A DNA stretch of 64,000 nucleotides from Omphalotus guepiniiformis. Lineage: Eukaryota; Basidiomycota; Agaricomycetes; Agaricales; Omphalotaceae. The notes beneath the pieces were generated by a model, which did no database searches, was not told the origin of the DNA, and was given only the letters and a program-made list of their open reading frames with translations. The stretch is from contig JAQOOI010000016.1 in the NCBI GenBank assembly GCA_028554645.1, positions 992,001 through 1,056,000 on the forward strand, written 5' to 3'. Shown piece after piece: positions 38,551 to 60,766 of this stretch. Numbering within the stretch: the stretch's first letter is position 1; every line of letters begins with the position of its first letter. The position numbers and the translations under genes were made by a program.

Positions 38551-38580
38551 TTTATGTAGGGTTTTCCAAAAAGCAGATAA

Positions 38581-39329: not shown

Positions 39330-39338
39330 GTATGGCTG

Positions 39339-39752: not shown

Positions 39753-39801
39753 CTTATTGTGGTCAATGACAGTTAAACACTCACGGCTAGTAACAATTTC
39801 C

Positions 39802-40413: not shown

Positions 40414-40425
40414 GATGTCATCAAT

Positions 40426-41041: not shown

Positions 41042-42889
41042 TGTAGTGACTATGAAATGGACGAGAGAGATACTCAAATGAGCACAATCCAACCCAAATC
41101 AAAAATGATGTAGGGTGAGGTGTGACTGGCGTTTTCAGAGATTCCGCACAGTTAGATGCAACAATTGAACTTCGAATCTGCAGAGTTACAGATGTCTTTA
41201 TCTCAATCTGGATGAAAAATGGCAGAGGGTATCTCAAAACACAAGATTCAGACAGAAGGTAAGGGTGGTTTTCAGGGTTCAGGAGGGATTCAGGACAATC
41301 AATCTCGATGTTAAACTCGATCCAATGGTCAGACAATGCAGGGAACAGTTTCAGATGCAGCACAGACAGTTTCAGCAGGCAGATATAGCACAGACAGAAC
41401 AGCAGTTTCAGCAAAGATTCAGTATCTCTTTCAATTTATCTGCCACAAGGGACTTTACAGAAGTTTTCACAACTGGATATTTCTCGAACTGAACTCTAAA
41501 GAGCCAGGCTATATTCCGTCTAAGAAGGGTTTCCTGCTTTTGGCTTGTAGCTTTGGGCAGTACTTGCTTAAGAAAATCTAAATAGATACTCTGTAAGCTA
41601 TATATATACTAAATCATAAAATCAAACATATATCTCGAAATTAAAAGAGTAATCTGAACAGTAAATGAGTCAAAAGTAAGTAAGTATCAATTGAGCAGAG
41701 ATTGGATTCTTTTTAGGTAGTTTTCTAGGTAATTTTCCAGTTAGATAGTCAAAAAAGTAGGAACTTTGGATATAGATTGGTATAAAAACAGAAATATATC
41801 GCTTTGTCCGCATTCTAGGTGTGTTAGGGCGTACCCAGGGTATCTAAATAAAGGTCCAGAACATGTAAATAGCAACCAGTATCATGACAGTTGACATTCT
41901 CCTCAGTGCATTGCAAATCTGGTCCCCTATAAGTTTCTCCAAAAGTGGCACATTCTCCTCTACTAGGGCAGCATTAGGGGTTGTGTAGAAGCTCTAGAGC
42001 TTATCTAGACCATGCTTCATCGTTTCTATCAGCCACAGTAAGGTACAGTAGCTGTTTATTTCAAGTTTTACCCCTATACATCTCTTTTTGGTCAGATTTG
42101 TACTCAGGTTATATTTCTTGTTTAGGATAGCTCTCAGCTCCTCCTAGGACAGTATTCTACCCCATAGTTTCGTCTAAGACCTCCAATCAGAGTGCCTTCG
42201 TCTTTCATCAAGTTCAGAGGGTTACTGAATTTCAGAGAGATACTCAGATCCAGAGAGATACTCATTTTCAGTATCTAACTCCTCCCATTATGAGTATTGA
42301 GTATCTAACTCATTTGTGCAGATGTAACTTTGAATCTACTTCCATTATTACACAGATTGGCCTTTCATCTTAGTGACATTATGTTCACATAGTACCCAAT
42401 GTACAAATATTTCTCTGGTAATACAATCCTCAAGATTGCCCATATTCTCAGCTTTCAATCTTGTAGTGCCAACTTAGTTAGCAAGACCAGCTGGAACTTT
42501 TGATCAGTCCAAAGGACTTAGATAGTTGTTCAATTGAAGTGAAAATCCATCAACCCCTTGGATTACAGTCAACAACACTTGGTAGAGTCTCTAGTTATTA
42601 GAGGGTGGGTCTGACCAACTCAATCTGGTATGGAACATTGAAATTCCAACACATCTGGAGAGGCATAACTAGTATCTCTTTGTATAACCCATTGGTCACA
42701 GTTGCTTAGCACAAGATTTAGTACTGTAGCAATCACTACACTTAGGCATTGTGAGTACAAGTATGTTTCATGTCTTAACTAGCAGTCTGGGGTGACTCTA
42801 GTCCTTTATGTTCAGTTTCCAATGCTTGAACATTCCATATTTACTTCAATCTGACAGATTTCAGCACTGAAAGGCTTTTTGACGCAACA
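41042..42889 (-). repeat. large element 3' LTR
   Basis: TGTAGTGACTATG..TTTTTGACGCAACA on +. It sits next to the polypurine tract. No convincing ORF. Confidence 0.95.
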
Positions 42890-42902
42890 TCTCCCCCAAA
42901 GT
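42890..42902 (-). other. large element polypurine tract
   Basis: Minus strand ACTTTGGGGGAGA followed by the LTR start TGTTGCGTC. Confidence 0.85.
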
Positions 42903-43193
42903 AAAATAAGATCGTCCTCGATCGTACCAGATTGGCCAAAATTGAGTTAGATACAATTATTACAAGCAGATTTGTCATAGAAGCACATTTCGTACCGTTC
43001 AATATCACAATATCACGTCTCATGGACTGCCATTAGGCAAAACTTTTCTCGATTGATCGCCAGTCAATACATTTACATCGGCATGTGACGGCAATGTCAG
43101 ACTTCGGCGAAACCCGCAATCTGCTTCTGTCAAAGTTTCGACTTAAACAGACAGTGATTCTCTTTCTCTCTTCACATCTCACTTCGTCCCCCG

Positions 43194-43614
43194 ATGGATG
43201 ATTTTTCAAGGCAATTGGCTTCCTCTATTACTCTCAGTAGGGAGCCTTCCAAGGTACCGGGTAAGTCCTTTTTAATTCCTTTCTCTCACGCGCTGTATTT
43301 CACAGTGTGTCACATATATATTCAAGAACCGTTCTCATTTTGACGGCCTCTTTCTTTTCTTTTCTCTCTCACAGCTTTCAGACATGAACAAAGAGGACTA
43401 CAAATCGCTATCCGCCATCGTTTCAAGACTTGGTGACCTGGACCGACGTTTATGCGACCAATCATTTAAGGAGTTTGGAAAGGGTCTTAGGTTGAAGACC
43501 ATTACCTCCGCCTTCGACGACTTGAATCTTGCCTTGGTAGGCATCAATTTCTTTTCATCTTTGTTATAGCTAACTTCAGTTTTACAGACTCGCGTCGCCT
43601 TAACATTTAATTGA
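43194..43614 (+). CDS. antisense accessory gene 1a (three exons, about 82 aa)
   Basis: Exons 43194-43253, 43375-43536 and 43588-43614 join in phase 0 to one frame: MDDFSRQLASSITL.., then DYKSLSAIVSRLGDLDRRLCDQ.., and a short last exon TRVALTFN with stop. Introns of 121 and 51 nt have GT..AG ends and pyrimidine tracts. It is a small, probably helical protein of no known family. It could also be the 5' end of the next gene if an exon was missed. It lies on the strand opposite to gag-pol, so a genomic transcript would carry it as unspliced antisense. Confidence 0.5.
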
Positions 43615-43685
43615 TGCCAGTGATCACAGACTCATCTCCCCGACTATTTCACCGGTTCTTTTCTTTCTGCCTGTAATCTTGCGCT

Positions 43686-45868
43686 ATGGCTCCATCAAGC
43701 AAAACCAACTTCGTTTATTGTGCCGCCCTGGGGGCTAAACTGTTCTAAGCTCAATTCTTTTTGTCTCAAATACACAGTAGGTATCTTTCAGATCCGTGTC
43801 ATTTCTTTTGCTAACTTTTTACAGCTTCGCAATGTATGGGAACCACTGCCTCCGTTCCCTAAGCTTAAGCAAACTCCACAGCTCGAAGAAGATAACGACG
43901 ACAATGAGATCCTATTACCTCCTCTCACCACACTTGCTTCCTCTGCCAAAGTTGCTCGCGCTGGATTGTCAAAGGTCTCAGCACCTGTCTCAAAACCAAA
44001 ACCTCAGCCAAAGCCAAAGGCCAAGGCCTCCGTAACGCCCTTACCAGGTCGTTCGGTAAGTCTTTTCTTTTGTTTGAAACTTTTCATTTCTCACTTCTAT
44101 CATTTTTAGATGAAACGCAAGATTTCCGACGTTGAAGCAACCGCCGAATCAACTGAGTTGACCAACGACGACAACGATGACACCGGCTTTGAGTCCAAGA
44201 GCTCAGAGCCTCCGGCTAAGAAGTCTCGAGTGTCCGTTGGTAAGAAATCAGCAGCAGCTGCCTCTTCTAAGGTTCGTTTCTCTTTGTAGATTTACTTATT
44301 CTTTTCTCATGTTTTCTTACACAGGGCAAGGGTAAACAGATGGTCAAGCCAAGACCGAAGATTCGAAATATGCGAGTAGAAGAGCCTGTCGATGAACCAG
44401 CGTCTCGAAAGACTCGCTCGAAGGCGACTTCAGTCACGGTGCCAGCATCCAGCGATGAAGAAGAAGAGAAGAAGGAAGAGGAGAAAGCGGTCAAGGCTGA
44501 GGGTGCTAAGGCCCCAGTCAATCTCAATGTTGACTTTGAGGCTCCTCTATGGGCTTCTTGTGCTGACTGTTCAACATCGTCTGTCTCCCTTGCTCCGGGC
44601 ACTCGTTACGAGGTGCCAAATCTTCAAGTTGGTCTCATTATTTCTTTTATTCCGGTCCTTATCATTGACCATGTCTTCCCTTAGTGGTCAGATGGACAAA
44701 CACCGCAGAATCGTGCTAAGGAGGACTTTGAGCAGATACCCGGTAAGTATCTTTCACTTTCATTTTTCTAGCGTTTGTTTAACGGTTCTTTTACAGGCCG
44801 TGTTGTCTTTGGATGGCCTTATGGCCGTCCTGTTACTTTACAGCAACTCGTTTCAGTCAACCGCACATTTGACAGGGTGAGTCTTTCTCAGAATCAGAGT
44901 AGATACTCACTAACATTTCTTTTTGTCGTTACCCAGTTCTTTGGCGACTCCATCTGCGCATCATGCGTACGTAGGTGGTACACACACTGAAGGTAGGGAA
45001 TGTCGCCCTCAACTTAATAGCAAGACCTTCGAGTGGCGCTGCGCTACCTGTGCGAAGGACAACCATACTTGCAGCTGGTCGTACGGTTTGGAAGGCAGCA
45101 ACCAGTTGCGATGCCTTTCGTACACGTTGGCTTGCAGTGGCAGTGCAGGTAAGTATTGCTTTCATTTATTTAGACCTCTTTTATTAAAGATTCTTCGTTT
45201 CTTAGTTGTTTCTCAGGAAGCTGAGCAGTTGCAGATTCTCATCGACACTTACGAGGACATGCAGAACAGCGTCTCCGCGCAGATGCGAGTGATGAAAAGG
45301 GTACACCGAACGATCTTGCAGCGTCAAGATCACCTCAAAGCTTCGTGTCGCGATCCTCGTCTCGTTCTCCATCAAGTTCAGACTGGCGACCCGACATTCG
45401 ACTATTCCGACGAGCAGCTGAAGTTACTGGCTACCGCGCTCGGCTGGGACATCAATCTGGTGTCTCAGGCAAGTTACATCGCTAGGAATGAAGCTGGTTG
45501 TTTCATCATGGTGGATCCAGAAGTTGAACCACAGGCAGGCCCTTCCAATATTCGCTGCACTCCCGTTGCTACAGCCATCGATGAATCGCCTCAGGCGGTC
45601 GGTGCCTCGCAGATAACGGTCGAAGAGGACAAAGACAAGGAAGACGAGCTGGAGGAGGAGACAATGGGCAGGGTCTTAGTGCCAGAAAGCAGTCCACTAG
45701 CTGGGAGGGACGATCCCCTCAGAGTGACTTTCAAGGCTCGGGTGCTCACACAGTTCGTACCCCTCTATTCCTTTACTTTCTCCATCTCTCAGTCCCAATC
45801 TCACAGATCTGTTGTTCTCTTCGCTTGACCATGACTTGCCGTATCTGTTTGCATTTCGTCGCGGGTAG
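43686..45868 (+). CDS. antisense accessory gene 1b (about ten exons, Cys-rich centre)
   Basis: Likely exons: 43686-43712, 43825-44055, 44110-44271, 44325-44627, 44685-44742, 44797-44876, 44937-about 44966, about 45000-45148, 45206-45752 and 45793-45868. Most boundaries keep phase. The protein starts MAPSSKTNF and has a Lys/Pro/Glu-rich, low-complexity first half with nuclear-signal-like KRKISD and PAKKSRV. A Cys cluster follows (CASC, then ECRPQ..WRCATCAKDNHTCSW) that resembles zinc-binding clusters of mushroom proteins. It ends in a helical region (LQILIDTYEDMQNSVSAQM), the LLATALGWDINLV block, and an acidic tail. The frame cannot be joined cleanly between 44966 and 45000 (a frameshift or missed microexon). 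Function unknown; a DNA- or RNA-binding role is only a guess from the Cys cluster. Confidence 0.55.
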
Positions 45869-46447
45869 CCTTGGTGTTCAACACACCAGGTTGCCCAAAT
45901 ATATAAAATTTTTATACATCGCTTTTTGCATAGATACTCCCTGTACTTACTTTATAGTAGTATAGGTTGAAGTATCTTCATAGTAGTACTGAGCTTTTAT
46001 GCTCAAAATATATGTTTCATTTTTCTTGGTATGAATCTGGTGTGAAACATAAGAAATCAGATTGAGAGCCTCCTTCAAATTGAGTATCTAACTCGATTTG
46101 AGAGAGAAACAATTCTTTAAATGACTTAAGCCCACAAATTTCCATAAGTATCATTTCTTTTTGAGGATATATTGAATTTAATAAGTCCTTTCTGTCAAGT
46201 TTGAGAGCTCTCAATTACTCGGCAATGCTATTTGGCTAAGTCCTCTGCGGTCAAAGCTGTCTAGATCTCCAGATTTGAGATATTTGAAATTTCAAAAATT
46301 CAAAATTTTGGCCTTGTAAACTTTGTGTGCTCTCTCCCCCCAAGTAAAATTAAGTTCAACGTTCCCGTTGATCAAACTCCACATCGTGCCTGTTTGAACA
46401 GCATAGGAGTAATGACCAACCTGCAGATTTAGACGGGGTAGAACAGA

Positions 46448-46454
46448 TATAAAG
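46448..46454 (+). promoter_or_regulatory. TATA box upstream of antisense gene 2
   Basis: TATAAAG lies 96 bases before the ATG at 46550 and is followed by a CT-rich stretch. Confidence 0.55.
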
Positions 46455-46549
46455 GTGCAGCGCAGATTCAGAACGACTCAGCACCATCTATCACTTGGTT
46501 CTACATCCCTTCCACTTTTATCATTTCTCTATCTCTATATTTTACAGTT

Positions 46550-47950
46550 ATGGCCCCTAAAGGTCCCAAGACTTGGCCTGAGCGTCCTGAGTGGGTTGCC
46601 ACAACGCAGTGCTATCTTTCTCGTGCTACTGGAGCCATGGAGGCCAAAGATGCAGATACTGAACTGCTTGGGATGCTTATTACAGCCCTTGCTAGCCATC
46701 TTGTAAATGTTCAATCTTTGATTCCAGGTCCAGTATCTAACTTGATTTCTTATTACAGAAGAAGTCTCTGCCTGCATATGCAGTTGCTAAGTCCGAGGAA
46801 GCGTTCACTTTGTTCGACAAAGGTGTCAATTTGGTCGCAGATGCAGTCAAGAAGTTCCCATCTGTAGTTGAACCTGACACTTTCTCCGCCATTAAAGCTT
46901 TCCAGGACAACTTGGCAAAATACAGAGAGACTCTCAGTGGGTCTAAGAAGCGCAAAGTACGTTTTTATTGACCATCCCTCTCATTTTAAGTATCTAACTG
47001 CCTATCTGTGTAGCCAGCTAAAACTCCCGAACTTATTGAGGATGATGATGATGACGATGAAGAGATTGAGGTCATTACTGGTGACGGAGACGTTACTGTA
47101 AGTATCTAACTCCTTGGTCACTGAGCATCTAACTCAAATCTCAACATGGTCTTTCTTTTCTCAGATGGCAGATGGACCTTCTCTTGGGCTCTCTGCGTCA
47201 ATCCACGCTCCCAATAAGGATAATAAGGACTCTAGCAAGGACAAGACAAAAGGTTCTTCCACTACTACCACAGTTCATAAGTCTTCCAAGGAAAGAGTAG
47301 TAAACACTTCTCCAAGGGTAAGCAGATTTATGTTCAGAACTGTTTATTCGTTTTTCTAGACTGATGTACCATGGTAACTTTGCAGGCTACCTCAGTTGGA
47401 CCCAAAGATGTAAGTTTTTAGTTCCATCTGGAGATATTCATGCAGTTTCATGCACTGACTATAAATGTTCATGTAGAATGAACCTATTCCTGAGCCTCAC
47501 AAGGTAATTGTCATGAAGAAGCCTCGTATTGAGAACCCAATCATCAACCTCCGAGAGGAGACAGATCGTGAGTATTCACCCAATCTGCGGCTTTTTTCGA
47601 GTATCTAACTCAATTATCCTGCAGATGAGCGCAAACTCCGGGAGAGTGGCGAAGAGATTGTGACTCGTATCACTGCTCTGTTCCCTTTCATGGATTTGGA
47701 TCACTTCTCTCCTGAGGTTCTTCAATCAATTTCGAACTTTTTGAAGACTGAACTCAGTGTTCATCAACATGCCATCCAGTACCACCATTCTCAGTACAGA
47801 TTCGCCTACAAGGAGTTTTCCCGTCTGGAATTGCTCCGGAGACAGAAGGAGAAGGCTTACAGGGCCAACCAGAGTCCCTTGGAATCTGGTCCAGGTACTG
47901 CTGATGATCCAGCTCCTTTTCATGCATTCCCATCTGCAGACATTCTCTGA
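46550..47950 (+). CDS. antisense accessory gene 2 (seven exons, 342 aa, intact)
   Basis: Exons 46550-46702, 46759-46956, 47014-47097, 47165-47317, 47386-47409, 47477-47567 and 47625-47950 sum to 1029 nt, an uninterrupted frame of 342 codons plus TGA. All six introns are 53-76 nt with GT..AG. Start chosen because ATG 46550 follows the TATA box and opens the frame (MAPKGPKTWPERPEWV). The N-terminal 115 residues are helical (ALASHLKKSLPAYAV, FTLFDKGVNLVADAV, KYRETLSGSKKRK). An acidic stretch (EDDDDDDEEIEV), a Ser/Thr/Lys-rich middle and a C-terminal helical region with Tyr/His/Gln (FPFMDLDHFSPEVLQSISNFL) follow. No known domain. Its stop is 202 bp from the convergent end of pol. Intact coding beside a broken pol suggests that it is either recent or selected. 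Confidence 0.75.
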
Positions 47951-48151
47951 TTTTAATGTTACATCTGGACATCTCAGTGTCATTTATAGGCAGTTTACAC
48001 GGTATTGGTACACCGTATAGGACATCCTCAGACACCCTTTATGTTTATCTTAGTAGTGCATACTACTGTTACCCACTTTTTACTTTCATCTGCAGTTAGG
48101 TCGTCACTTTTCAGTGTCTATCTCGTACTTCGTTCAAATATAGTGTGTTTA

Positions 48152-50521
48152 TCATTTATTTTGTGAAGATTGAGACCTGGTCTGGACTGGAGCATCCCAA
48201 TCTGGTTCTTCTTCATCTGCATCGTTTGCAGATTGTAGTTCTTCATCACTGGACTCATCAAGATCTTCATCTTCAGCAGGAATTCTCAGTTGAGGAATAC
48301 TGTCAAAGATGTAATCTCTCTCAAGTTCAGGGTCTAACTCAATGTTATCATTGACCATTTCTTCCAGTTGTTCACTAGTCAAGTCTATAAGTTCATGAAT
48401 GTTCTCAGGCAGTTCAATTGATTCATATCTAGCTACATGGAGTAGTACTCTGAAGGCAGCAACCTTTTCTCTGAGTACTGTACCATCCATCTGGGCCACA
48501 ATGTAGGATCCCCCTTTGGTTCTCCTTATTACAATCATGGATCCCAGGTATCTAGGATACATCTTTCTGTCCAAGTTCTTCTCAATTTGTGTATTTCTGA
48601 CTTGTATAAGTGTACCAGGTTTGAAGTCAAAATCTCTGATAACATTTCTGTATTCTTCTTCATATTGTCTAAGAGTCTCTTTCTTGGTTGCATCAATTCT
48701 AGATATCATCTCCTGCACATGGGTTCTATGTTTAGCTAGAGCTTGTGCCCTATAGCCAATGAGTTTCTCATATGTCAAGATTCTATCTGGAAGCTTTACT
48801 AGCCATGTAGATTCAACAATATCCAAGGGTAGGATAGGTTCAGCTCCAGTAACAAGAAAGTATGGTGAACATCCAAGTCCTTTTCTAGCTGTAATTCTAT
48901 CTGCCCAGAAGACATGTTTGAGAAACCACCACCATCTCTTCAGATCTCCACCTGTAGCTTTAGCCAAGGCAGTTCTAATGTCAAAGTGGGCTCTCTCAAT
49001 CTTGCCATTTGCTTGGGAATTGTAAGGAGATATGGTAATTCGTTTAATTCCATATTTATCTTCTAGCCATTTAAGCATAGCTCGCATCTGGGGTGCATTA
49101 TCAGTTACTACTTCATCAGGACATCCCCATCTGCATATAATATCATCAAAGAACCATTCTCCCAATGATCTAGCATTGTCAGATCTCAAGGCTCTTCCTT
49201 CAGACCAGGATGAGAGTGCACATCTGCCATGTACAACATCCTTGCAACCATTACTTGGAGGTGATACTTTGAACACATCTACATGAATCTTCTGAAACAG
49301 AGAGGGAGTGTGTGTAAGAGTGGGGGGAATCTTCAACAATTCTAACTTTCGGTTTTGGCAGATTTGGCAGGATTTGACAAACCAATTGACATCTCCATTC
49401 AAATCTGGCCACCAAAAACGCTTCTCTATGAGAGCTTTTGTTGCAAACATTCCTTTATGTCCCAGATGGTCATGAGCAGCATGCATCATGTACATCCTTT
49501 TCTCTTTAGGCACAATCAGTCTATGCTGGCCTCCTGTATCATCATTCCTTCTATAGAGTCTACCATCTCTGTCCACAAAGAACTTTACAGCCCTGGAAAT
49601 GAACTTTTTTCTAGCAGTCTCACCTAGGTGAGCTAGAGGCTGATTGCCCTGCAGGTACCAATCTTTGATTAGGTCTAGTTGTTCATCCAGTTCCTTTGTA
49701 GATGCAGATCTGTGATCCTCTCTATATGGGTGTTCATGTTTCCATTCAGTACCTCCTTCAGGTATAACCAAAGTCTGTGCAAATTGCAACATCGAGTTAG
49801 ATACTGGATGTTGAGTTGCTAACAGCTCTCTAATAGAATTCAAGTGATGTTCTTCTTCAAGAGCTTCTTGCAAATCGTCCTTAAAGTCGTCTATTGACTT
49901 TGCAACTTCCTGCAAGTAACCGCCTCGAGTATCTATTTCATCTTTAAAGGCTTCAAAATCAAAGGGTACCTCAGATTCACCATCTCCCATTCTGAATTTC
50001 ACCGGCAGACCATCATCTTCATCAACAAATGAATCTGGATCTCTAGATGCCACTCTTTCAGTTGGTATGGTTCCTCTAGGTGGTCTAGATAGTCCATCTG
50101 GTCCCTTATGTTCAGTGCCCTTGATGTGTACCAAGGTGAAGTGGAACTTCCTTATTTCTTCAATCCATCTGTTTATAGTTGCATTGGGACCACTACTGGG
50201 TTTGTCAAGCATTCCTTTAATATAGCTTGCATCTATTCCCACAGTAAGATCCCTACATCCATATGTCTGGTAATATGTTTGTTGTAAGGCCAACATCAAG
50301 CCATATAGTTCTCTCTTGGGTTGAGAAAACCTTGCTTCTCTTTCATTTAAAGTAATGGAACCCATCCAATTGTAGAACTTTTTCTTTGAATCTGCAGGGT
50401 CTCTCTGATATAGTTGGAAACCTACTGCCATCCAGGAAGTATCTACTGAGAGGGTGATTCCAGTACTTAAACCATAGTCAATACTCAATAGGACAAAGTG
50501 CCGGAGCATTTCTGATCCCAT
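48152..50521 (-). CDS. pol: large element RNase H and integrase
   Basis: 789 codons. RNase H: SVDTSWMAVGFQLYQ, REARFSQPKRELYGLMLAL, GIDASYIKGML and HKGPDGLSRP. Integrase: zinc finger around HDHLGHKGMF and CQICQNRK; catalytic Asp in KIHVDVFKVSP, Asp in VVTDNAPQ, Glu in GKIERAHFD. A basic C-terminal module and an acidic tail ending TRSQSSQNK follow. There is no chromodomain. The N-terminal codons belong to another phase: a 7-bp near-duplication (ATTGAGT ATTGACT) at about 50477-50490 shifts the frame from RT. Confidence 0.9.
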   Translation of the reverse strand: MGSEMLRHFVLLSIDYGLSTGITLSVDTSWMAVGFQLYQRDPADSKKKFYNWMGSITLNEREARFSQPKRELYGLMLALQQTYYQTYGCRDLTVGIDASYIKGMLDKPSSGPNATINRWIEEIRKFHFTLVHIKGTEHKGPDGLSRPPRGTIPTERVASRDPDSFVDEDDGLPVKFRMGDGESEVPFDFEAFKDEIDTRGGYLQEVAKSIDDFKDDLQEALEEEHHLNSIRELLATQHPVSNSMLQFAQTLVIPEGGTEWKHEHPYREDHRSASTKELDEQLDLIKDWYLQGNQPLAHLGETARKKFISRAVKFFVDRDGRLYRRNDDTGGQHRLIVPKEKRMYMMHAAHDHLGHKGMFATKALIEKRFWWPDLNGDVNWFVKSCQICQNRKLELLKIPPTLTHTPSLFQKIHVDVFKVSPPSNGCKDVVHGRCALSSWSEGRALRSDNARSLGEWFFDDIICRWGCPDEVVTDNAPQMRAMLKWLEDKYGIKRITISPYNSQANGKIERAHFDIRTALAKATGGDLKRWWWFLKHVFWADRITARKGLGCSPYFLVTGAEPILPLDIVESTWLVKLPDRILTYEKLIGYRAQALAKHRTHVQEMISRIDATKKETLRQYEEEYRNVIRDFDFKPGTLIQVRNTQIEKNLDRKMYPRYLGSMIVIRRTKGGSYIVAQMDGTVLREKVAAFRVLLHVARYESIELPENIHELIDLTSEQLEEMVNDNIELDPELERDYIFDSIPQLRIPAEDEDLDESSDEELQSANDADEEEPDWDAPVQTRSQSSQNK

Positions 50522-51230
50522 CTTTAATCATTTCTACAGCTTCCAGTTCTGCAGGACCCATTTGAAAAGGCACATCACCAGTCAAGATTGTCAAAGGTTT
50601 TGCTTTCTTGGCATAATCCTTTATGAACATTCTCATCTGACCAGCAGTGCCCAAAAATAACCGGATATCTTTCTTCTCAGACCATTTTGATGCATCACAA
50701 GTCAGGACAACTTCAGCTAACCTTTCAACTGGTTTTTCTCCTTCATAACTGACATGATGTCCAACAACATCACCTTCAGCTACACAGATGAAAGCTTTGG
50801 TACCCGCAAAGGTACCACCAGCATGTTTCATTCTTTGCACAATTCTGTTCATATTCTGCAGATGCTCCCACACAAATCTTCTGATGCCAGAATTTTCAGG
50901 GATAGTTTCATAACCTCCATCTGCAGTTTCATATCTGCTGACTGGCCCTTTTACTGGTACATCATCAATGTAAGGTTTAGTTACATGTGGAATTTCATCT
51001 CTGAAGATGTATGTAACATCATCATGGTAGATTGGTACAGAATTTGTCCAACCCATAGGTAACTTTACTAATCTATGTGGGCCAAAAGGTGTTTGGAAGG
51101 TTGTAAGATCTCTTGAACTTTCATCAACCAGCCTCTCATCATAACCAACAAAGATATCCAGCAATCCCAAACATGCTCTTCCAGAGAAGCTTCTAGCTAT
51201 ATCTGCAGTTGCAGGAGGAATTCCTGAATG
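50478..51230 (-). CDS. pol: large element reverse transcriptase, palm and thumb
   Basis: LLDIFVGYDER (first catalytic Asp), TTFQTPFGPHRLVKLPMGWTNSV, KPYIDDVPVKGP (YIDD), FAGTKAFICVAEGDVVGHHVSYEG and LGTAGQMRMFIKDYAKKAKPL. It is preceded in frame by HSGIPPATADI and a TAA at 51231-51233, where CAA (Gln) is likely. Confidence 0.9.
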   Translation of the reverse strand, partial: HSGIPPATADIARSFSGRACLGLLDIFVGYDERLVDESSRDLTTFQTPFGPHRLVKLPMGWTNSVPIYHDDVTYIFRDEIPHVTKPYIDDVPVKGPVSRYETADGGYETIPENSGIRRFVWEHLQNMNRIVQRMKHAGGTFAGTKAFICVAEGDVVGHHVSYEGEKPVERLAEVVLTCDASKWSEKKDIRLFLGTAGQMRMFIKDYAKKAKPLTILTGDVPFQMGPAELEAVEMIKDGIRNAPALCPIEY

Positions 51231-52202: not shown

Positions 52203-52237
52203 TTCAATACAAACAGCTACCTCTCCCTGATCTCTTA

Positions 52238-52915
52238 TCAGTTCATTGAGGTCCGATGAAAATTTTGAGAGTCTCTCTCATTTTTCACAGGGACACTCAC
52301 AGATTTCTGTGTTTCAGGGACAAGCTTTGGTTCACCAGGAATAGGTTTAACCTTGATTCCTCTACCTCTATCATATGTTCCCATAGTACACTTCATTCCA
52401 CTGTTTGGATCTGTAATGGTGATCTCTTGTTCTCCAGTTTCAAAGTTTCTGACTACACTGCTTGTCAACACATCAAATGGTCTTCCCCAAAGAACATCAT
52501 AAGGCACTTTATCTATTATGTGGATTTGCATATAGATAGTTATTTCTCCAAAGGTAAATGGCACATTTCTTGCTAGTCCCCTAGTAGCCTGTAATTGACC
52601 ATTTGCACTTTGCATATGGATCACAGTCTCTGGGTTCCATCTTAAACCAAGTCCAATAGCTACTCTTGTATCCATGGACACGATTTGAGAACCACTATCA
52701 ACTACTGTCTCAACTTGTTGATCAGAGTGATTAATCTTTGGGTAGATTGCCTTCAGACTGTCAGTCTGGCTGGCTACTATAATGGTCTTGTTCCTCTCAT
52801 CTGGAGGTACATCTTTCTGATACTGGTCCACGACATCCTTGTGTACCACTGAGCCTTTCTTAAGGTCATCCGTTAATGTGCATGAATTAGACTGAGAGGA
52901 AGTCTCAAGAAACAA
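52238..52915 (-). CDS. pro: large element protease
   Basis: The active-site motif is VVDSGSQIVSMD at about residue 72, with a flap region and VPYDVLWGRPFDVL (ILG-type motif). The upstream end is cut by the inserted LTR at about 52930. The downstream frame shifts after NFHRTSMN. Confidence 0.85.
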   Translation of the reverse strand: MFLETSSQSNSCTLTDDLKKGSVVHKDVVDQYQKDVPPDERNKTIIVASQTDSLKAIYPKINHSDQQVETVVDSGSQIVSMDTRVAIGLGLRWNPETVIHMQSANGQLQATRGLARNVPFTFGEITIYMQIHIIDKVPYDVLWGRPFDVLTSSVVRNFETGEQEITITDPNSGMKCTMGTYDRGRGIKVKPIPGEPKLVPETQKSVSVPVKNERDSQNFHRTSMN

Positions 52916-52929
52916 CCTCTAACTCAATT

Positions 52930-54677
52930 CTAGGGGGGTTTGTGGAGGTGTGGCTGGCGTTGGCAAAGGTTCCGCACAGTTAAACTCGACAATCGAACTC
53001 AATACTGAGCTAGCAAGTGTCTGCAGTCCGCTTCTGAACAGGGTATAAGTGACAGGGCAACTCAAAAACACAGGTTCAAGACAGAGGGCAACTAGTTTCT
53101 CAGGGGTTCAGGGGATGGTTCAGGGCAATATTCAGTGTGGGCAACTCGATCCAATGGTCCAAACAGTGACAGTATCAATCAGAACAGTGGCAGCAACAGT
53201 TTCAGCAGGCAGAACAGCACAGACAGAACAGCAGGGACAGCAACAGTTTCAGTATCTCTCTCAAGGTTTGCCACAAGGGACTTTACAGAAGTTTGCACAA
53301 CTGGTATATTTCTCTATAACTGAACTCCTAAGAGCCAGGCAAATTTCGTCTAGAAGAAGTTCTGCTTTGGTAGTGAGCCTAGGCAGTCCTAACTTAAGGA
53401 AAAATATCTACAAGTAGGTAGTTCTTATATACAGGTCAGAAAATAAATATAGTAAATCTCGAAAATGTAAGGGAATCTGAGCAGAGTAACTAGAATAGAT
53501 AACAGAAAGACTAATTGAGCAGGGATTGGTGTCTTTTTAGGTATTTTTGTAGGTATTTTTCAGTTAGATACTGTCATGTATAGGTATCTTGGGTATAAAA
53601 ATTGTTATAAAAATCGCTTTGTCCATATAGTGGCTTGGCAATCAAGTCCAGGGTATCTAACCAGGGTGTACAGCACGCAATATCAGTCCAGAATGGTGCC
53701 ATATGACAACATCTTTTATGATTTTGAAATTTGCAACTCCTTTGGATTTTCTAACTGGGGGCTGCTGGTGAGGTTCCTAGCAGATCCAGTGGTTATTTCT
53801 TCGTTTCAGAGGTCATCTAGACCCTACTCCGTTGTTACTATCATCCACAAGCTGTACAGTAGCACATGTGTCTATCTGGCCAGATCTTGCATCTGATTTG
53901 TCTCCAGGAGGTACTTCTCCTTTTAGCTGGTTCTAGCAACAAGCTATGGGCAGTATTATGTCCCAATAATCGTTTATTCTTCCCTATTTGGGTGTCTGGG
54001 TTCAGGGTATCACTCAGTTAGATGTTACATTTCAGAGGGATACTCCAGAATCAACATCTAGTTCCATGGTAGGATAGCTTGAGTATCTAACTCCATTCTT
54101 CAGAAATGACTTAGAGGATTTTTCCTCTTTAGCCAACAGACAAAGGTGGTTCACAAGTAGTAACACCATCCTAAGCATAGTACCAAATGTACAACATATT
54201 TCTCTGGTCAGAACAATACAAGATTGTCTGCACTCTCAGTATTCAGTCTTTACAGCCAACCTGAGTTAGCAAGACCAGCTGGAGTTAGGTAGTCCAGTGG
54301 ACTTAGATGTTTCTCAGATTGAATTGTAACTTCCATCATTCCCTTGGATTACAATCAAACAACACTCATGAGAGTCTCTAGTCTTTAGAGGGTGGGTCTG
54401 ACCAACTCAACTTAGCATGGAACATTGGTACTCCAATACAAAGTGAGAGGCAAAACTAGTATCTCTCTCCATGATCCCATTGGTCACAGTTGCTAAGTAC
54501 CATATCATGTACTGTAGCTAACTCTACACTCAGGTTTGAGTAACTGAGTGTGTTCTCATGTTTCAACTAGCAGTCTGGGTGAACTCTAGTCCTCATTGTT
54601 CAGTTTCCAATGTTTGAACAACCCAAATCTTTCTCAATCTGCATGATTTCAAGCCTAGACCGCTTTTAGTTGCGACA
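52930..54677 (-). repeat. nested, diverged LTR related to the large element's own LTR
   Basis: It shares blocks with 41100-42889 along its length (GTGTGGCTGGCGTTGGC, CAGTTTCAGCAGGCAGA, CCACAAGGGACTTTACAGAAG, GCAAGACCAGCTGGA, AGAGGGTGGGTCTGACCAACTC) and ends TAGTTGCGACA. It lacks about 80 bases at the left end and is far more different from the two outer LTRs than they are from each other. It separates the C-terminal Gag-Pol spacer from protease. No clear target duplication. Confidence 0.85.
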
Positions 54678-55443
54678 CCGTGTCTTCATCTAGGACAATA
54701 AACACATCTTCCCTTTCATAGGCCATATCTTCAATAAAGACCATATAATTTGCCTGTACCAGATTGACACCTTCTTCTGGTAGAATACCATCAGGATCAT
54801 CTTCATCCCTTACTTCATGAACAAAAGCCTTTACAGGACGCTTATACACCCTGTTGTTCTTCAATTTTCTCTGCATAATTTTCTGAAGTGCCGGAGATAT
54901 AGCAATGAGGTCCCCACTACTTATATCTATCTCAGATCTAAAGATTTTGTCTGCAATTTCTTCTGCTAGACCTGGTTTGAATAATGAATTTCTAAGCTTG
55001 AAATCAGGCTCAGATTTACATGGAGGCTTTGTATAAACAATAGCATTCCTTATGTCAATATCCATTCCCTCTTTAGCTCCAGATTGAGTCCCTCCAGCCT
55101 CATTTGACTTGTTCTGGCTCCCTACAGGCATTCCTTTTGGTATAGGTGGCCTATCTATTGCCTTTACATGATCAAACGGATGGTTAGATACTCTCCGTGC
55201 AGCATCGTTGTTATTTTCAGAGGGAGATTCACTCTCCTCGGTGTCAGAATCAACGGGTAGTTCAAAACAAACAGGCTCTTTTCTCATAGCAGGGGGTCTG
55301 TATTTCTCCCTTTCAGATGGTTTCAGTGTAGGTAGTAACACTTCAACTCTCTTTTTCTTTACAAGTTTATTTTCCTCATGAGATTGACCTGTTTTGTGAG
55401 AAGGATTCTGGGTGTATACAGCTTCTTTACCAATCTCCCTCAT
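54655..55443 (-). CDS. large element Gag-Pol spacer (frame after gag)
   Basis: 262 codons, highly charged (SDTEESESPSENNNDAARR; EVRDEDDPDGILPEEG), with helices but no recognised domain. It starts in the -1 frame relative to gag, 9 bases after the gag stop. It ends at a stop lying within the inserted LTR, so its native continuation is protease at 52915. It probably is the N-terminal part of Pol in this lineage. Confidence 0.65.
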   Translation of the reverse strand: MREIGKEAVYTQNPSHKTGQSHEENKLVKKKRVEVLLPTLKPSEREKYRPPAMRKEPVCFELPVDSDTEESESPSENNNDAARRVSNHPFDHVKAIDRPPIPKGMPVGSQNKSNEAGGTQSGAKEGMDIDIRNAIVYTKPPCKSEPDFKLRNSLFKPGLAEEIADKIFRSEIDISSGDLIAISPALQKIMQRKLKNNRVYKRPVKAFVHEVRDEDDPDGILPEEGVNLVQANYMVFIEDMAYEREDVFIVLDEDTVSQLKAV

Positions 55444-55451
55444 TGGAAACT

Positions 55452-56402
55452 CTAGTTTTTCGACTCAGAGTTATTTTCTCGTTTCAAGATCTGCTTAGTC
55501 TCAGATTTAGCTGCTGGTGCCAGATTCTGCAAAGTATTGCAAACCTGACTGAATTGAGCAACAAGGCTGTTGATAGCATCTAATGAACTATTTTGAGAGG
55601 GACCTGCTATAGCAGAATCCTCATCTTCAAAAGCATACAAGTTCTGGTCAACATGAGAGGAAGGTTGTTCCCATCCATGTCTTTTGGCAATTTCCTCAAT
55701 CTTCTCTTTCTTAGACCGAGTATCAGATGGATCAGCTCTTGGCCAATATACTCCATCTTTCAGTGCCCATTTACCAGCACTATTTTTGATCATCCACCCC
55801 AACCTGATAAATCTAAGTTGATGTGGACAGTTCATAGATCTATGTCCAGGCTCATCACACATATAGCAATTGGAGTCAGCATGAGTATTATTATTCACAG
55901 ATGACATCTGGGACGATCTTTGTACACTATTGTGTCCATTAGAGTTCATTCCAGGTCCAGATTGGGAATTTGGAGCATTCATGTTCATCCTAACTGAGCT
56001 AGAAGTTGCTTGGGTCATTTTTGCCAAGTTAGCAACTGTCTCAGATAGCTTTGCAAGAGCTGCCAGATTCGTCTCCTGGGCTTGTCTAATCTGGTTAAAC
56101 TGGTTCTGGTGACTATCCACTGTTGCAGACAATTTCATTGCCCACTGATCTGGTTCTGACTTTACAGTAGATGCTACTTGGTAAGGATCATATAACTTCC
56201 TTGTAGCACTCTGCTCAGTTGTTGGGAGTATCCTAGAGTATCCTTCTGCCAGATTTGGACCATTCAAGAATAAACCAAAGTTGTATCCCCCTGCTCTTTT
56301 TACAGATAAGAGTTTTTCAGCCTCAGACATTACATCTTTCAGAGTAAAAGGGTCATCCTCTCTCTGAACTTGTAAGTGGCCATTGATCACTTTGTTTTCT
56401 AG
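55452..56402 (-). CDS. gag: large element Gag, C-terminal part with zinc knuckle
   Basis: VINGHLQVQREDDPFTLKDVMSEAEKLL, a Gln/Asn-rich middle, then CYMCDEPGHRSMNC (CX2CX4HX4C) and WMIKNSAGKWALKDGVYWPRADP. It ends RENNSESKN-TAG at 55452-55454. The frame at its start is open into the R1 insertion. If the insertion and one duplication copy (1383 bp together) are left out, gag becomes one frame of exactly 636 codons plus stop. Confidence 0.85.
   Translation of the reverse strand, partial: LENKVINGHLQVQREDDPFTLKDVMSEAEKLLSVKRAGGYNFGLFLNGPNLAEGYSRILPTTEQSATRKLYDPYQVASTVKSEPDQWAMKLSATVDSHQNQFNQIRQAQETNLAALAKLSETVANLAKMTQATSSSVRMNMNAPNSQSGPGMNSNGHNSVQRSSQMSSVNNNTHADSNCYMCDEPGHRSMNCPHQLRFIRLGWMIKNSAGKWALKDGVYWPRADPSDTRSKKEKIEEIAKRHGWEQPSSHVDQNLYAFEDEDSAIAGPSQNSSLDAINSLVAQFSQVCNTLQNLAPAAKSETKQILKRENNSESKN
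55455..55461 (-). promoter_or_regulatory. candidate -1 ribosomal frameshift site at the gag end
   Basis: On the minus strand GAAAAAC directly precedes the gag TAG. A -1 slip there leads into the next frame (LEFPMREIGKEAV..), and the -1 frame is closed by TGA only a few codons upstream. The heptamer is close to, but not a perfect match to, X-XXY-YYZ. Confidence 0.4.
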
Positions 56403-56406
56403 GCGG

Positions 56407-57785
56407 TGATGAGAATGAAACGGGGAAATGAACTGCTAAAGGGCTAATGAACAAAAACCCCAAAAACAACCAAAACAACCAAGTCACTCGAAAGGTGCGA
56501 GTCTGAGGGGGCATTGTCGAAGGTTCTGCACGACCAAACTTATGGCTTCTTTATTAGAACTTTATATCTTTATCACAAGAACTTTATAGCTGAGCTTTTA
56601 AAATGCACTAAGGCAAAAAGTAGCACAAGACGATTTTGAACAAGACAGGTGTTCACTGCACAATCACAACCAATTGACCACAAGATCAAACAACCAATTC
56701 CAATAACACAACCAGTTCAATTCAACCAACAATGATCTTTATACAATATCGCAATAAACACCGAACTATAAACAGACCAGGGCAACTTTATGTTTTTGGT
56801 AGGATTTCCCTTCACAGGCACGATTCACGTTATAAAGACGATCCCCAGTGACCCTGTGACTCTATGATACTCTCCTGGATTTCTTCTCTCCCAGTTACTG
56901 CCCTTTTATACATACTGCCAGTCCAAAATTAATAAAAACGGAAATTATAGCTAAACTGTTCTGCTTTATATATATACCTATATTCGTGTATGTAGGTTGT
57001 AAATATCTGTGTCAAGCATGTCCATTATTACTTGTATAGATCTATTTTATGAGGCAAAACCTCAAAAATGCGTTTTAATTCCATTATTTTTATTATAGGC
57101 AATATTCAGCCCCTTTATTTCATTTTTACGGATTTCCTTGACATTTCTCGGGCATCCGGGTTCCATAGGATTAATCACCTGATAGAAATTATACCCCTCA
57201 AAGTATCACATTGTTTCGTTAAAGGAACTCCTTCAATTCAGTAGTATTCCGAGAAATTTTACTGATCGAGTTTTTTACACCTCCTAACCGGTTTCTTGTC
57301 AAGCAATTTTCACCGGACAATTAATTGAAGCAAATTTCCTCGATCAACTTTTGTTCCTGGCGATTAATTAAGGAGTAAATACCCCAAAACTACTCTAGAT
57401 CCATTATTTCGACTCTATTTCGCGTTCCATCCATTTTTAGTTTCCGCCGGGTTTTTATTCTTTATTGACCGGAGGAAGATGTTCCCCTAATAATTATATG
57501 ATGCAATTGACGTTGTGATGTCAGAGTTCTCGTTACGAGATTGGGTGAGTCTGATTCAACAGTGGATGGCTATTGAACAATTCTCTACATCACAACTGTA
57601 CTGACTAGCCTAGAACCTTGATACACATGTTGTACCGTAGGTAATAGAACATGCTTTATTACTCAAATCACAACACATTTTGATTGACAAGGCGGGCACC
57701 TTTCAACCCTCTAATACCTCACTGCAAATGCCTAAAATGATTAATCACCTGGCTTTTAATGCAGGTGCCGAAAATCGGCGCATCA
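56407..57785. mobile_element. R1 element, 1.38 kb, inserted in gag with TSD GCGG(T)
   Basis: Ends TGATGAG and CGCATCA are near-perfect inverted repeats (TGATG..CATCA). GCGG, or GCGGT if the element is one base shorter, flanks both sides (56403-56406 and 57786-57789). The interior has no ORF. Segments A (56443-56985), B (56983-57277) and the right end (57690-57785) recur elsewhere in the window, broken. TG..CA ends, size, a TATA box in A and the small duplication suit a solo LTR of another retroelement; a non-autonomous DNA element is the alternative. Confidence 0.88.
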
Positions 57786-58745
57786 GCGGTCCAGAAGTTT
57801 CCTTCTGAAGGGTTCATCCAGTGCACTCAAGAAACCAGCTACAGCTTCTGAGTTTGATACTACAGGTGTAGTACCAGAAGATAGTTTCTCATACTCAATC
57901 TCATACTCTCTTTTAAATGCCATCAGTTTCTGAATAGCACCAAGCACTATGAGTTTATATGCATCTATGATAGCATACAATCTTTGTCTAGATCCCAGTC
58001 CTCTATCTGCAGATTCAGGGAAATTTTTCATTAATGCCTCTTTGAAAGCATCCCAATCCAAATCTTTAACAGCTTGAAGCCGTTGAAACTCTTCACGAGT
58101 ATGGAACTCCATATATCTGAGAGCCAACATTACTTTAGCCGCATCTGTTTTAGTTCCGGTTGACACAAAGATGCCTTCCAGCTCTGCCAACCATGCAACT
58201 AGTTCAGATGGATGTTTCTTATCAAAGATGGGAGCCTGCTTAGAGACTTTAGGTAGTTTCTCATTCTGCAACTCTTTAGCTGCAGGAACAGGAATCTGCA
58301 TTCCTGTTGCATTTCCAAAAATGAAGATCTCTTCCATCTCAACAGGTCCTTGGATAGGTTCTTGTTGTTGGGGAGCTTCATTCCCAGTAGCATTGTCATG
58401 AGTAGACATATTGTTTCTCGGGTTCCTTATTATTTTAACAGGAATTCTTTTATGTGTCAAGGCAAAATATTGAGGACTGTTGACAAAGTTCCTCTTATTT
58501 TTCTTGTATCTAGCTGAGAGTTCAGATAAATCTGGAGGTGTATTCCGTTCAGGAATCGTACTTAGGGATGAAAGAGACGAAAGTGGACTTGAATCTGGTT
58601 CAGGTACGACTTCTTTCTCTTTTCCTTTGAAACTTTTCCTTCTGGATGACTGGTTCAGTGACAATTCTTCTGTTCCAGCTCTCTCAGAATTCTTAGTTTT
58701 TCTAGGACGGGTGTTTCTCTGTGAGCTGCTAATTTTGACAAGCAA
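57783..58745 (-). CDS. gag: large element Gag, N-terminal and capsid part
   Basis: It starts MLVKISSSQRNTRPRK at 58745, the first ATG after the primer site. A basic/Ser-rich N-terminus is followed by the capsid domain (APIFDKKHPSELVAWLAELEGIF, ALRYMEFHTREEFQRL, DWDAFKEALMKNFPE, FLSALDEPFRRKLLDR). The fold pattern is that of the retrotransposon Gag capsid family. The stop TGA (57783-57785) is created by the inserted R1 end. Confidence 0.88.
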   Translation of the reverse strand: MLVKISSSQRNTRPRKTKNSERAGTEELSLNQSSRRKSFKGKEKEVVPEPDSSPLSSLSSLSTIPERNTPPDLSELSARYKKNKRNFVNSPQYFALTHKRIPVKIIRNPRNNMSTHDNATGNEAPQQQEPIQGPVEMEEIFIFGNATGMQIPVPAAKELQNEKLPKVSKQAPIFDKKHPSELVAWLAELEGIFVSTGTKTDAAKVMLALRYMEFHTREEFQRLQAVKDLDWDAFKEALMKNFPESADRGLGSRQRLYAIIDAYKLIVLGAIQKLMAFKREYEIEYEKLSSGTTPVVSNSEAVAGFLSALDEPFRRKLLDR

Positions 58746-58899
58746 ACTCTAAGTTATAAAACTTATAGATGGTTCCACAACTTCAAGGAAATTGTTGCTA
58801 AGTGAGGAACAGGGCAAAGTTCAACACAGAAAAAGTCCAGATTTATTTCCAGACACGTGTAAATACACAGATAGTTCAATTATCAAGTCTAAAGCCACC

Positions 58900-58916
58900 C
58901 CTCGCGGTGGGCTCCA
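58900..58916 (-). other. large element primer-binding site
   Basis: Two bases after the 5' LTR end (CA + TC) the minus strand reads TGGAGCCCACCGCGAGG. It is complementary to a tRNA 3' end terminating GGGCTCCA. I could not name the tRNA. Confidence 0.65.
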
Positions 58917-58918
58917 GA

Positions 58919-60766
58919 TGTAGTGACTATGAAATGGACGAGAGAGATACTCAAATGAGCACAATCCAACCCAAATCAAAAATAATGTAGGGTGAGGTGT
59001 GACTGGCGTTGTCAGAGATTCCGCACAGTTAGACGCAACAATTGAACTTCGAATCTGCAGAGTTACAGATGTCTTTATCTCAATCTGGGTGAAAAATGGC
59101 AGAGGGTATCTCAAAACACAAGACTTAGACAGAAGGTAAGGGTGGTTTTTAGGGTTCAGGAGGGATTCAGGACAATCAATCTCGATGTTAAACTCGATCC
59201 AATGGTCAGACAATGCAGGGAACAGTTTCAGATGCAGCACAGACAGTTTCAGCAGGCAGATATAGCACAGACAGAACAGCAGTTTCAGCAAAGATTCAGT
59301 ATCTCTTTCAATTTATCTGCCACAAGGGACTTTACAGAAGTTTTCACAACTGGATATTTCTCGAACTGAACTCTAAAGAGCCAGGCTATATTCCGTCTAA
59401 GAAGGGTTTCCTGCTTTTGGCTTGTAGCTTTGGGCAGTACTTGCTTAAGAAAATCTAAATAGATACTCTGTAAGCTATATATATACTAAATCATAAAATC
59501 AAACATATATCTCGAAATTAAAAGAGTAATCTGAACAGTAAATGAGTCAAAAGTAAGTAAGTATCAATTGAGCAGAGATTGGATTCTTTTTAGGTAGTTT
59601 TCTAGGTAATTTTCCAGTTAGATAGTCAAAAAAGTAGGAACTTTGGATATAGATTGGTATAAAAACAGAAATATATCGCTTTGTCCGCATTCTAGGTGTG
59701 TTAGGGCGTACCCAGGGTATCTAAATAAAGGTCCAGAACATGTAAATAGCAACCAGTATCATGACAGTTGACATTCTCCTCAGTGCATTGCAAATCTGGT
59801 CCCCTATAAGTTTCTCCAAAAGTGGCACATTCTCCTCTACTAGGGCAGCATTAGGGGTTGTGTAGAAGCTCTAGAGCTTATCTAGACCATGCTTCATCGT
59901 TTCTATCAGCCACAGTAAGGTACAGTAGCTGTTTATTTCAAGTTTTACCCCTATACATCTCTTTTTGGTCAGATTTGTACTCAGGTTATATTTCTTGTTT
60001 AGGATAGCTCTCAGCTCCTCCTAGGACAGTATTCTACCCCATAGTTTCGTCTAAGACCTCCAATCAGAGTGCCTTCGTCTTTCATCAAGTTCAGAGGGTT
60101 ACTGAATTTCAGAGAGATACTCAGATCCAGAGAGATACTCATTTTCAGTATCTAACTCCTCCCATTATGAGTATTGAGTATCTAACTCATTTGTGCAGAT
60201 GTAACTTTGAATCTACTTCCATTATTACACAGATTGGCCTTTCATCTTAGTGACATTATGTTCACATAGTACCCAATGTACAAATATTTCTCTGGTAATA
60301 CAATCCTCAAGATTGCCCATATTCTCAGCTTTCAATCTTGTAGTGCCAACTTAGTTAGCAAGACCAGCTGGAACTTTTGATCAGTCCAAAGGACTTAGAT
60401 AGTTGTTCAATTGAAGTGAAAATCCATCAACCCCTTGGATTACAGTCAACAACACTTGGTAGAGTCTCTAGTTATTAGAGGGTGGGTCTGACCAACTCAA
60501 TCTGGTATGGAACATTGGAATTCCAACACATCTAGAGAGGCATAACTAGTATCTCTTTGTATAACCCATTGGTCACAGTTGCTTAGCACAAGATTTAGTA
60601 CTGTAGCAATCACTACACTTAGGCATTGTGAGTACAAGTATGTTTCATGTCTTAACTAGCAGTCTGGGGTGACTCTAGTCCTTTATGTTCAGTTTCCAAT
60701 GCTTGAACATTCCATATTTACTTCAATCTGATAGATTTCAGCACTGAAAGGCTTTTTGACACAACA
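58919..60766 (-). repeat. large element 5' LTR
   Basis: 1848 bp, same length as the left LTR. About seven of roughly eleven differences lie in the first 240 bases on +; the rest are spread near the other end. Confidence 0.95.

Follow-up and report, generated by a model that had tools for sequence, protein, structure and literature searches.

A stretch of 64,000 nucleotides from the genome of Omphalotus guepiniiformis (C16:992001-1056000, hereafter the window) contains a minus-strand Ty3/gypsy long terminal repeat (LTR) retrotransposon of 19.7 kb, of which about 3.1 kb are two later insertions. Between its pol gene and 3' LTR lie two predicted intron-rich genes, A and B, on the plus strand and hence antisense to gag-pol. 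Searches of the whole genome (42.5 Mb, 80 contigs) recovered the block in other copies and in related families; short introns and the presence of both gypsy and copia elements would point to a fungus, probably a basidiomycete. We regard it as all but certain that these two genes, which are under selection, belong to this group of retroelements.

Gene A (43194-45828) has about ten predicted exons and some nine introns (Table 1). Where exons 1 and 2 join is uncertain, because three other copies differ at this point. In the window copy the frame is broken in exon 9 and the 3' end is unlike that of other copies; in family 1, to which the window element belongs, the frame is continuous over exons 3-10 in 25 of 30 rows. 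Exon 9 of intact copies holds a Cys-rich stretch, read by eye as C-x2-C-x10-C-x12-C-x2-C-x6-C. Gene B (46550-47950) is predicted to consist of seven exons separated by six GT-AG introns of 56-68 bases and to encode 342 amino acids; it is intact in the window, as it is in 27 of 30 family-1 copies. The original prediction of intron-bearing plus-strand genes between pol and the 3' LTR is borne out by these exon structures, but it had counted three genes, and from the sequence we read two, gene A having a single frame over exons 3-10 and gene B being separate. Intron 9 of gene A (window 45149-45205) is 57 bases long in most copies and is free of stops in the six copies checked; because it reads through, two isoforms are conceivable, and it is possible that retention of this intron gives a longer protein.

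The two LTRs are 99.4% identical (11 mismatches over 1850 aligned bases), with TGTAGT at the start and CAACA at the end on the plus strand, and they are closer to each other than to the eight LTRs of four other copies (96.7-97.2%). A polypurine tract (PPT) at 42890-42900 directly adjoins the 3' LTR, and a site resembling a primer-binding site (PBS) lies two bases inside the 5' LTR, so that the terminal features named in the original prediction are in place. The inner flank with the PBS-like site is identical in four other full-length copies, and when up to three mismatches are allowed the window contains the site only once. Self-priming by the LTR in place of a tRNA primer was considered and dropped, as the PBS complement has no second match in the window at that threshold.

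The domain order is gag, protease, reverse transcriptase (RT), RNase H and integrase, as in Ty3/gypsy elements, from Pfam matches and motif positions, with gag below threshold and RT placed by motif. The RT stretch (50481-51230) gave no Pfam match, and we take LPMGW and YIDD to be its RT motifs. No chromodomain was found at the integrase end (Pfam scan of 48152-50524, E up to 1), so the element was not classed as a chromovirus. Judged on its sequence, the element is an LTR retrotransposon with Ty3/gypsy domain order. The span of 19.7 kb given in the original prediction includes two nested insertions (about 52.9-54.7 and 56.4-57.8 kb), both of which break up gag-pol; with these removed, gag-pol takes up about 7.5 kb of an interior of some 13 kb. 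The LTR-to-LTR pitch is 17.88 kb in the window copy versus 14.67-14.71 kb in the four other full-length copies.

Table 1. Positions of the element's features in the window
Feature	Position	Strand	Basis or remark
Gene A exon 1	43194..43260	+	3' limit uncertain; three other copies differ
Gene A exon 2	43382..43536	+	5' limit uncertain
Gene A exon 3	43630..43776	+	
Gene A exon 4	43825..44055	+	
Gene A exon 5	44110..44271	+	
Gene A exon 6	44325..44627	+	
Gene A exon 7	44685..44742	+	
Gene A exon 8	44797..44876	+	
Gene A exon 9	44937..45148	+	Cys-rich; frame broken in window copy
Gene A exon 10	45206..45828	+	earlier end in other copies, after ...DPLSE
TATAAA, candidate promoter of gene B	46448..46453	+	about 97 bp 5' of gene B start codon, by eye
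Gene B exon 1	46550..46702	+	
Gene B exon 2	46759..46956	+	
Gene B exon 3	47014..47097	+	
Gene B exon 4	47165..47317	+	
Gene B exon 5	47386..47409	+	
Gene B exon 6	47477..47567	+	
Gene B exon 7	47625..47950	+	includes stop codon
3' LTR, 1848 bp, TG...CA	41042..42889	-	alignment to the other LTR, exact ends and flanks
5' LTR	58919..60766	-	LTR-LTR alignment, ends and flanks
PBS-like site TGGAGCCCACCGCGAG...	58899..58916	-	candidate, two bases inside 5' LTR; primer tRNA not assigned
Terminal PPT module	42890..42923	-	PPT GGGGGAGA (genomic RNA sense), T-rich box, small hairpin upstream
Internal PPT module	46332..46371	-	second copy, between genes A and B; whole hairpin, T-rich box, PPT
Two copies of 13-bp motif GAGTATCTAACTC in 3' LTR	42269..42311	+	one with 1 mismatch; same pair at 60146-60188 in 5' LTR
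Five motif copies in gene B introns 1, 2, 3 (two) and 6	46731..47611	+	0-2 mismatches; 46731, 46988, 47100, 47123, 47599
gag, capsid-like part	57783..58748	-	open frame; Ty3_capsid E 0.065, below cut-off (weak)
gag, zinc-knuckle part	55455..56435	-	CCHC around 55868 (motif position); zf-CCHC E 0.012, below curated cut-off
pol, aspartyl protease part	52238..52918	-	gag-asp_proteas E 1.2e-6 and Asp_protease_2 E 2.5e-6, both above cut-off
pol, RT part	50481..51230	-	motifs LPMGW and YIDD only
pol, RNase H and integrase part	48152..50527	-	RT_RNaseH 2.2e-7 and Integrase_H2C2 1.8e-18, both above cut-off
Nested solo LTR of family 2	52923..54677	-	interrupts pol; outer limits approximate
Second nested insertion	56440..57790	.	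limits approximate; pieces match window 4977-5972 and 36916-37013

Copies of the block in the genome

For the searches with the LTR, gene B and a gene A piece, the best 40 of 228, 64 and 47 candidates, respectively, were scored, and the resulting counts are lower bounds; for the end of pol, 140 of 198 candidates were scored, and for exon 7 of the family-2 gene B all 126. Of the 40 pol copies with the highest scores, 38 show gene B 923-955 bp away from pol and in the same relative orientation. Gene A lies within 2.5 kb of gene B in 36 of 44 family-1 gene B copies, and in three of the eight misses it was found on the usual side but 16-17 kb off, as though a further element separated the two. The four other full-length copies have LTR pairs that are identical (C22, 100%; target duplication TCGG), free of mismatches with 2 gap positions (C14; CCGA), 98.9% identical (C46+; CCGG) and 99.1% identical (C46-; imperfect duplication GCGG/CCGT). 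Exact 4-bp target duplications were present in three of these four copies and in two of three solo LTRs; that of the window copy is imperfect (GCGA/GCGT). In C22 the gene B frame is open and the acceptor of intron 1 is altered, exons 3-10 of gene A are open in C22, C14 (one donor altered) and C46+, and C46- has a broken gene A and an open gene B. Since copies with the block have near-identical LTRs and 4-bp duplications, the antisense block was moved recently by retrotransposition. The block thus recurs at the same place in several copies with different flanks and target duplications, which was the outcome that the original prediction had looked for.

The same prediction had allowed for a chromosomal gene cluster merely trapped between two unrelated LTR copies. 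The imperfect target duplication of the window copy would fit this, as would its flanks, a nearly unique gypsy-like stretch on the left and a piece of a MYND-like gene on the right. However, the LTRs of the window resemble each other more than any of the eight others compared, gene B keeps its place in the best-scoring pol copies and stands beside pol in four families, and the same block lies in copies with identical LTRs and target duplications, which already refutes a trapped cluster; we give it next to no weight.

As to the choice of target, 15 of 18 distinct outer LTR ends (L001-L008, L069-L076 and the window, judged by eye) adjoin NCGN (CCGG, TCGG, CCGA, CCGC, GCGA and others), and the three ends outside this pattern are in L004 and L005. 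Insertions seem to favour 4-bp targets that contain CpG.

A second family was recognised from the nested LTR of the window; in it, too, a gene B homolog lies between paired LTRs. With exon 7 of this gene B as query, the 126 matches fell into groups of 96-100% identity (n=17), 69-81% (family 1 and two fragments), 33-36% (n=35) and 28-37% (n=28); one match of the last group (E 0.15 in a frame of 904 amino acids) is probably due to chance. Families 1 to 5 are bins set by chosen cut-offs in pol identity, with four rows assigned by hand, and families 3 and 4 were assigned as gypsy elements from the pol end only. A gene B homolog was counted if it lay antisense to pol and at most 1.5 kb beyond its 3' end; by this rule one was found for 43 of 45 listed pol copies of family 1, 17 of 17 of family 2, 34 of 36 of family 3 and 22 of 25 of family 4, together 116 of 123 (140 pol ends scored). 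The case that other copies lack the block, also raised by the original prediction as one that would undo it, is therefore not what the genome holds. On the same strand as pol, no gene B was seen within 3 kb of a listed pol among the 126 gene B matches. A gene A homolog lies upstream of gene B on the same strand in 10 of 17, 34 of 35 and 21 of 28 cases in families 2, 3 and 4, respectively, with identities of about 57-69% in family 2 and 25-33% in families 3 and 4.

The gene B of one family-2 copy is identical to that of the window at 245 of 338 residues, and that of one family-3 copy at 117 of 320. All three have six introns in the same order and with the same phases (0,0,0,0,0,1); introns 1, 2 and 6 are at the same aligned residue, and introns 3-5 of the family-3 gene fall in poorly aligning stretches. 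Such a multi-intron structure is typical of host genes, and genes A and B might have been captured recently from the host, as genes that help it or merely hitch-hike. However, gene B homologs in this genome form four high-copy groups, the 116 listed pol copies adjoin one, and an identity of 37% combined with unchanged intron phases implies long residence, so that recent capture appears quite improbable. In this genome, the two-gene block has remained next to pol during the split of the group into at least four families.

Family 2 also has a short form, with an LTR-to-LTR pitch of about 11.59 kb in five copies versus 14.65 kb in five others; in each short pair, both LTRs score equally against the query. 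One short copy, read from the LTR to gene B, keeps both PPT modules (see below) and lacks gene A, and its gene B is first met at a 29-base match in intron 2, exons 1-2 being missing. Matches to gene A are absent from all five short copies and from two other family-2 copies. The possibility that the short elements end at the internal PPT was excluded, because the copy read retains both modules.

Codon constraint and intron retention

The selection analysis covers family 1, with 30 distinct copies for gene B and 29 for the pol end; for gene A, exons 3-8 and 10 were used, and exons 1, 2 and 9 omitted. In gene B the ratio of nonsynonymous to synonymous substitution rates (dN/dS) is 0.075, the segregating sites are distributed as 24/17/78 over codon positions 1/2/3, and the pairwise divergence is 0.007, 0.005 and 0.044 at these positions and 0.039 in introns. 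In gene A dN/dS is 0.11 for exons 3-6, 0.06 for exons 7-8 and 0.13 for exon 10 (0.15 once two frame-shifted rows are dropped). The pol end gave 0.073 over 29 rows with L010, which aligns poorly there, excluded, and 0.278 with it. As a control, each of the other five frames of gene B contains stops in all 30 rows; dN/dS is 0.129 in one antisense frame, which shares third positions, and 1.8-3.4 in the rest. The count of gene B beside pol across families serves as a second control against chance. Constraint on genes A and B in family 1 is thus similar to that on the pol end. Silent sites of gene A diverge between copies by 0.14-0.24, far more than those of gene B (0.064) and of the pol end (0.056), which hints at an exchange of gene A blocks between sub-families.

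These data bear on a further explanation, in which the antisense transcript itself matters, for example by forming double-stranded RNA that dampens the element, whereas its reading frames are incidental. Non-coding antisense transcripts have been reported for some retroelements in passages of a review of the field (PMC7264820). In gene B, however, changes concentrate on third codon positions, the frame is mostly open, and introns vary about as fast as third positions. The codon-level constraint refutes the strong form of this explanation, which we rate as very unlikely; a role of the RNA in addition to that of the proteins is possible.

None of the 180 gene B introns and none of the 210 gene A introns was lost, and GT-AG was kept in 178 and 209 of them, respectively. 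The claim that introns survive in antisense orientation agrees with this, since none was lost in any copy examined. We infer that the introns are kept because the packaged RNA is the opposite strand: there, they would not be introns and would pass through reverse transcription unchanged. Codon selection in one family, gene B intron phases in three and the position beside pol in four are direct evidence that both genes belong to the element and are not mere remnants. The case also illustrates, in nature, how genes rich in introns can persist in an element that is copied through RNA.

Repeated signals, related systems and possible function

The 13-bp motif GAGTATCTAACTC, an imperfect inverted repeat, has 26 matches in the window at up to two mismatches, versus 1.7 expected, and 327 exact places in the genome, versus 0 for the reversed word; 82 of 100 listed places are within 12 kb of a family-1 or family-2 match. 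At the same threshold, it occurs in intron 1 of gene B in 26 of 30 copies, in introns 2 and 6 in 30 of 30 and twice in intron 3 in 30 of 30, and in introns 4 and 5 in 0 of 30; family-2 gene B has it in introns 1, 2, 3 and 6. Column variation is 0.021 in the motif, 0.044 in other intron sequence and 0.030 at splice sites. The motif overlaps what we take to be likely branch sites (CTAAC), and this overlap could explain part of its conservation.

The 17-base PPT pattern occurs twice in the window, versus 0.05 expected. The internal module was present in 29 of 29 other family-1 loci examined (20 exact, 9 variant), as well as in two family-2 copies, a long one and a short one. In its hairpin, 41 of 42 cells pair, and two pairs, each of them in the short form, have substitutions at both partners; of 500 shuffles, 10 attain this level. 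A control slid by +3 gave a slightly higher covariation score, but only 44% of its cells pair. In the MAFFT alignment the terminal hairpin was shifted relative to the internal one, and the three terminal rows were counted at the two inner pairs only. Taken alone, the hairpin covariation is little evidence. A second PPT, internal or central, also exists in Ty1 and lentiviruses, likewise away from the 3' LTR; here, as known from sequence and pairing conservation, a whole module of hairpin, T-rich box and PPT is repeated between genes A and B.

Antisense accessory open reading frames (ORFs) are already known from LTR elements. In plant Ty3/gypsy elements, those between pol and the 3' LTR (aORF-3R) are described for Grande (gene23), RIRE2, Retand (TRP28) and PvRetro13; their proteins, for which no function is established, are considered nuclear or DNA-binding, and an own promoter is reported for Grande (PMC7264820, PMC11963269). 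The block resembles plant aORF-3R, as described there, in its place within a long region from pol to the 3' LTR, in being antisense to gag-pol, in being carried by the majority of copies (116 of 123 listed pol copies of families 1-4) and in a family-1 dN/dS near that of the pol end. It differs in that the group studied here keeps two genes with 6 and about 9 introns and, for gene B, conserved phases across families; moreover, the gene A and B pieces gave no Pfam match to TRP28 (PF04195), the family found in plant Retand. Both articles treat such antisense genes as ORFs, the word "intron" being absent from their main texts, and one calls for a search for antisense and spliced transcripts (PMC7264820, PMC11963269; the call in PMC7264820). 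The accessory-gene part of another article is about DNA transposons (PMC12477816).

Boty (BcGypsy1) of Botrytis cinerea, with the antisense gene brtn, is cited as a fungal case (PMC7264820, PMC8365987, PMC4227169); brtn was reportedly described by Zhao in 2011. Like Boty, the window element is a fungal gypsy element with an antisense gene; unlike it, no chromodomain was found in pol, whereas that of Boty is said to carry one, and target duplications are of 4 bp versus 5 bp for a Boty solo LTR (PMC4227169). A literature search confined to titles and text passages found no description of spliced antisense genes in fungal LTR elements, which does not prove that none exists. What is new is that two multi-intron genes are kept across four families.

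In retroviruses of the human T-cell leukemia virus (HTLV) type, HBZ is an antisense spliced gene near the 3' LTR and encodes a nuclear regulator. The genes predicted here are likewise antisense, spliced and near the 3' LTR; unlike HBZ, they are two, have many introns and are located between pol and the LTR. The antisense promoter of HTLV is placed in the 3' LTR (PMC7264820).

We propose that the window element belongs to a long-lived group of Ty3/gypsy elements in which two accessory genes, owned by the element, are encoded antisense in the region from pol to the 3' LTR, and the kept protein reading of both suggests a control system of the element itself. The original prediction had named silencing, packaging and host chromatin as points where such cargo could act. 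The gene A and B proteins would probably be nuclear and act on the element's own expression or chromatin, with the LTRs as likely targets; a nuclear role is suggested by basic stretches, the Cys-rich part of gene A, the proposals for antisense genes of other retroelements and the 13-bp motif. This functional reading, nuclear action with regulation of the LTRs, is tentative, but the explanation as a whole, a long-lived group with two own antisense accessory genes that are probable nuclear regulators, we consider likely. Alternatively, the proteins may be structural or envelope-like parts of the particle, as their position between pol and the 3' LTR, that of env, would allow. The antisense orientation, acidic and basic low-complexity stretches in the predicted proteins (by eye) and the lack of an envelope-like Pfam match make such parts improbable.

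Several observations weigh against the proposal of element-owned nuclear regulators. Target duplications are imperfect in two of five full-length copies (window and C46-), seven of the 123 listed pol copies of families 1-4 are without gene B, and a gene B homolog was found in 0 of 17 listed copies of family 5 (pol 53-54%, e.g. C74:738203-738826), where the block is dispensable for some relatives or too diverged for detection. The pairwise divergence and dN/dS values are sums over related copies, which are non-independent. Transcription and splicing of genes A and B are predictions from the DNA. Furthermore, no homolog or fold match hinting at their function was found in a protein collection, Pfam or PDB. 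In the large protein collection, possibly poor in fungal proteins, whole gene B had 2383 candidates but none at E 1, its exon 7 one candidate that was not confirmed, and gene A exons 3-10 none among 7988 scored, so that these negatives carry little weight; Pfam matches of both genes were all sub-threshold and were rejected. The predicted structure of gene B exon 7 (mean predicted local distance difference test score, pLDDT, 75) has one short and one very long helix and no PDB match at E 0.001, and that of gene A exons 9-10 (mean pLDDT 42) was set aside. As for the motif, inspection by eye did not show it in the introns of the family-3 gene B, and 18 of 100 listed places are not near a known copy; the link between motif and proteins is therefore weak. 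Finally, the short form, five copies without gene A and, in the one copy read, without gene B exons 1-2, has nevertheless multiplied.

Genes A and B are thus not needed in cis. As the short form multiplied without a full gene set of its own, the gene products may act in trans, or they may be dispensable; its young-looking copies would make action in trans the probable case, and the short form provides a natural contrast between cis and trans action. In its most elaborate version, which is doubtful, the proposal becomes a two-protein system owned by the element: nuclear A and B would recognise its own DNA, with GAGTATCTAACTC as candidate site in the LTRs and in a hidden intron array, and set the balance of expression and silencing in trans; antisense placement would keep the intron-rich locus, the second hairpin-PPT module would start plus-strand synthesis, and short elements would use the proteins of full ones. 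If so, a regulatory locus of the eukaryotic, intron-rich type would be kept through an RNA stage by its antisense placement.

Nested insertions and flanking DNA

The solo LTR within pol matches other places in the genome at 95-99% over 52923-54654. The RNase H-integrase part of pol had 34 pattern matches in IMG/VR, none of which was confirmed. The left flank (37828-41049) is a minus-strand gypsy-like pol that includes an SH3 domain of the Tf2 type; only one other stretch of the genome matches its right end (68% over 166 bases), which is thus close to unique, and the flank is therefore uninformative on whether both flanks were once joined. An LTR-like piece lies at 37014-37227. In the right flank, 60844-61029 resembles a piece of a MYND-finger gene, below the Pfam cut-off. 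Farther off, at window positions 14831-32844, direct and inverted repeats of up to 390 bases that resemble one another are densely nested; this part also has copia-like ORFs (by eye) at 17287-20997 and a predicted tRNA-Thr at 31497-31572.

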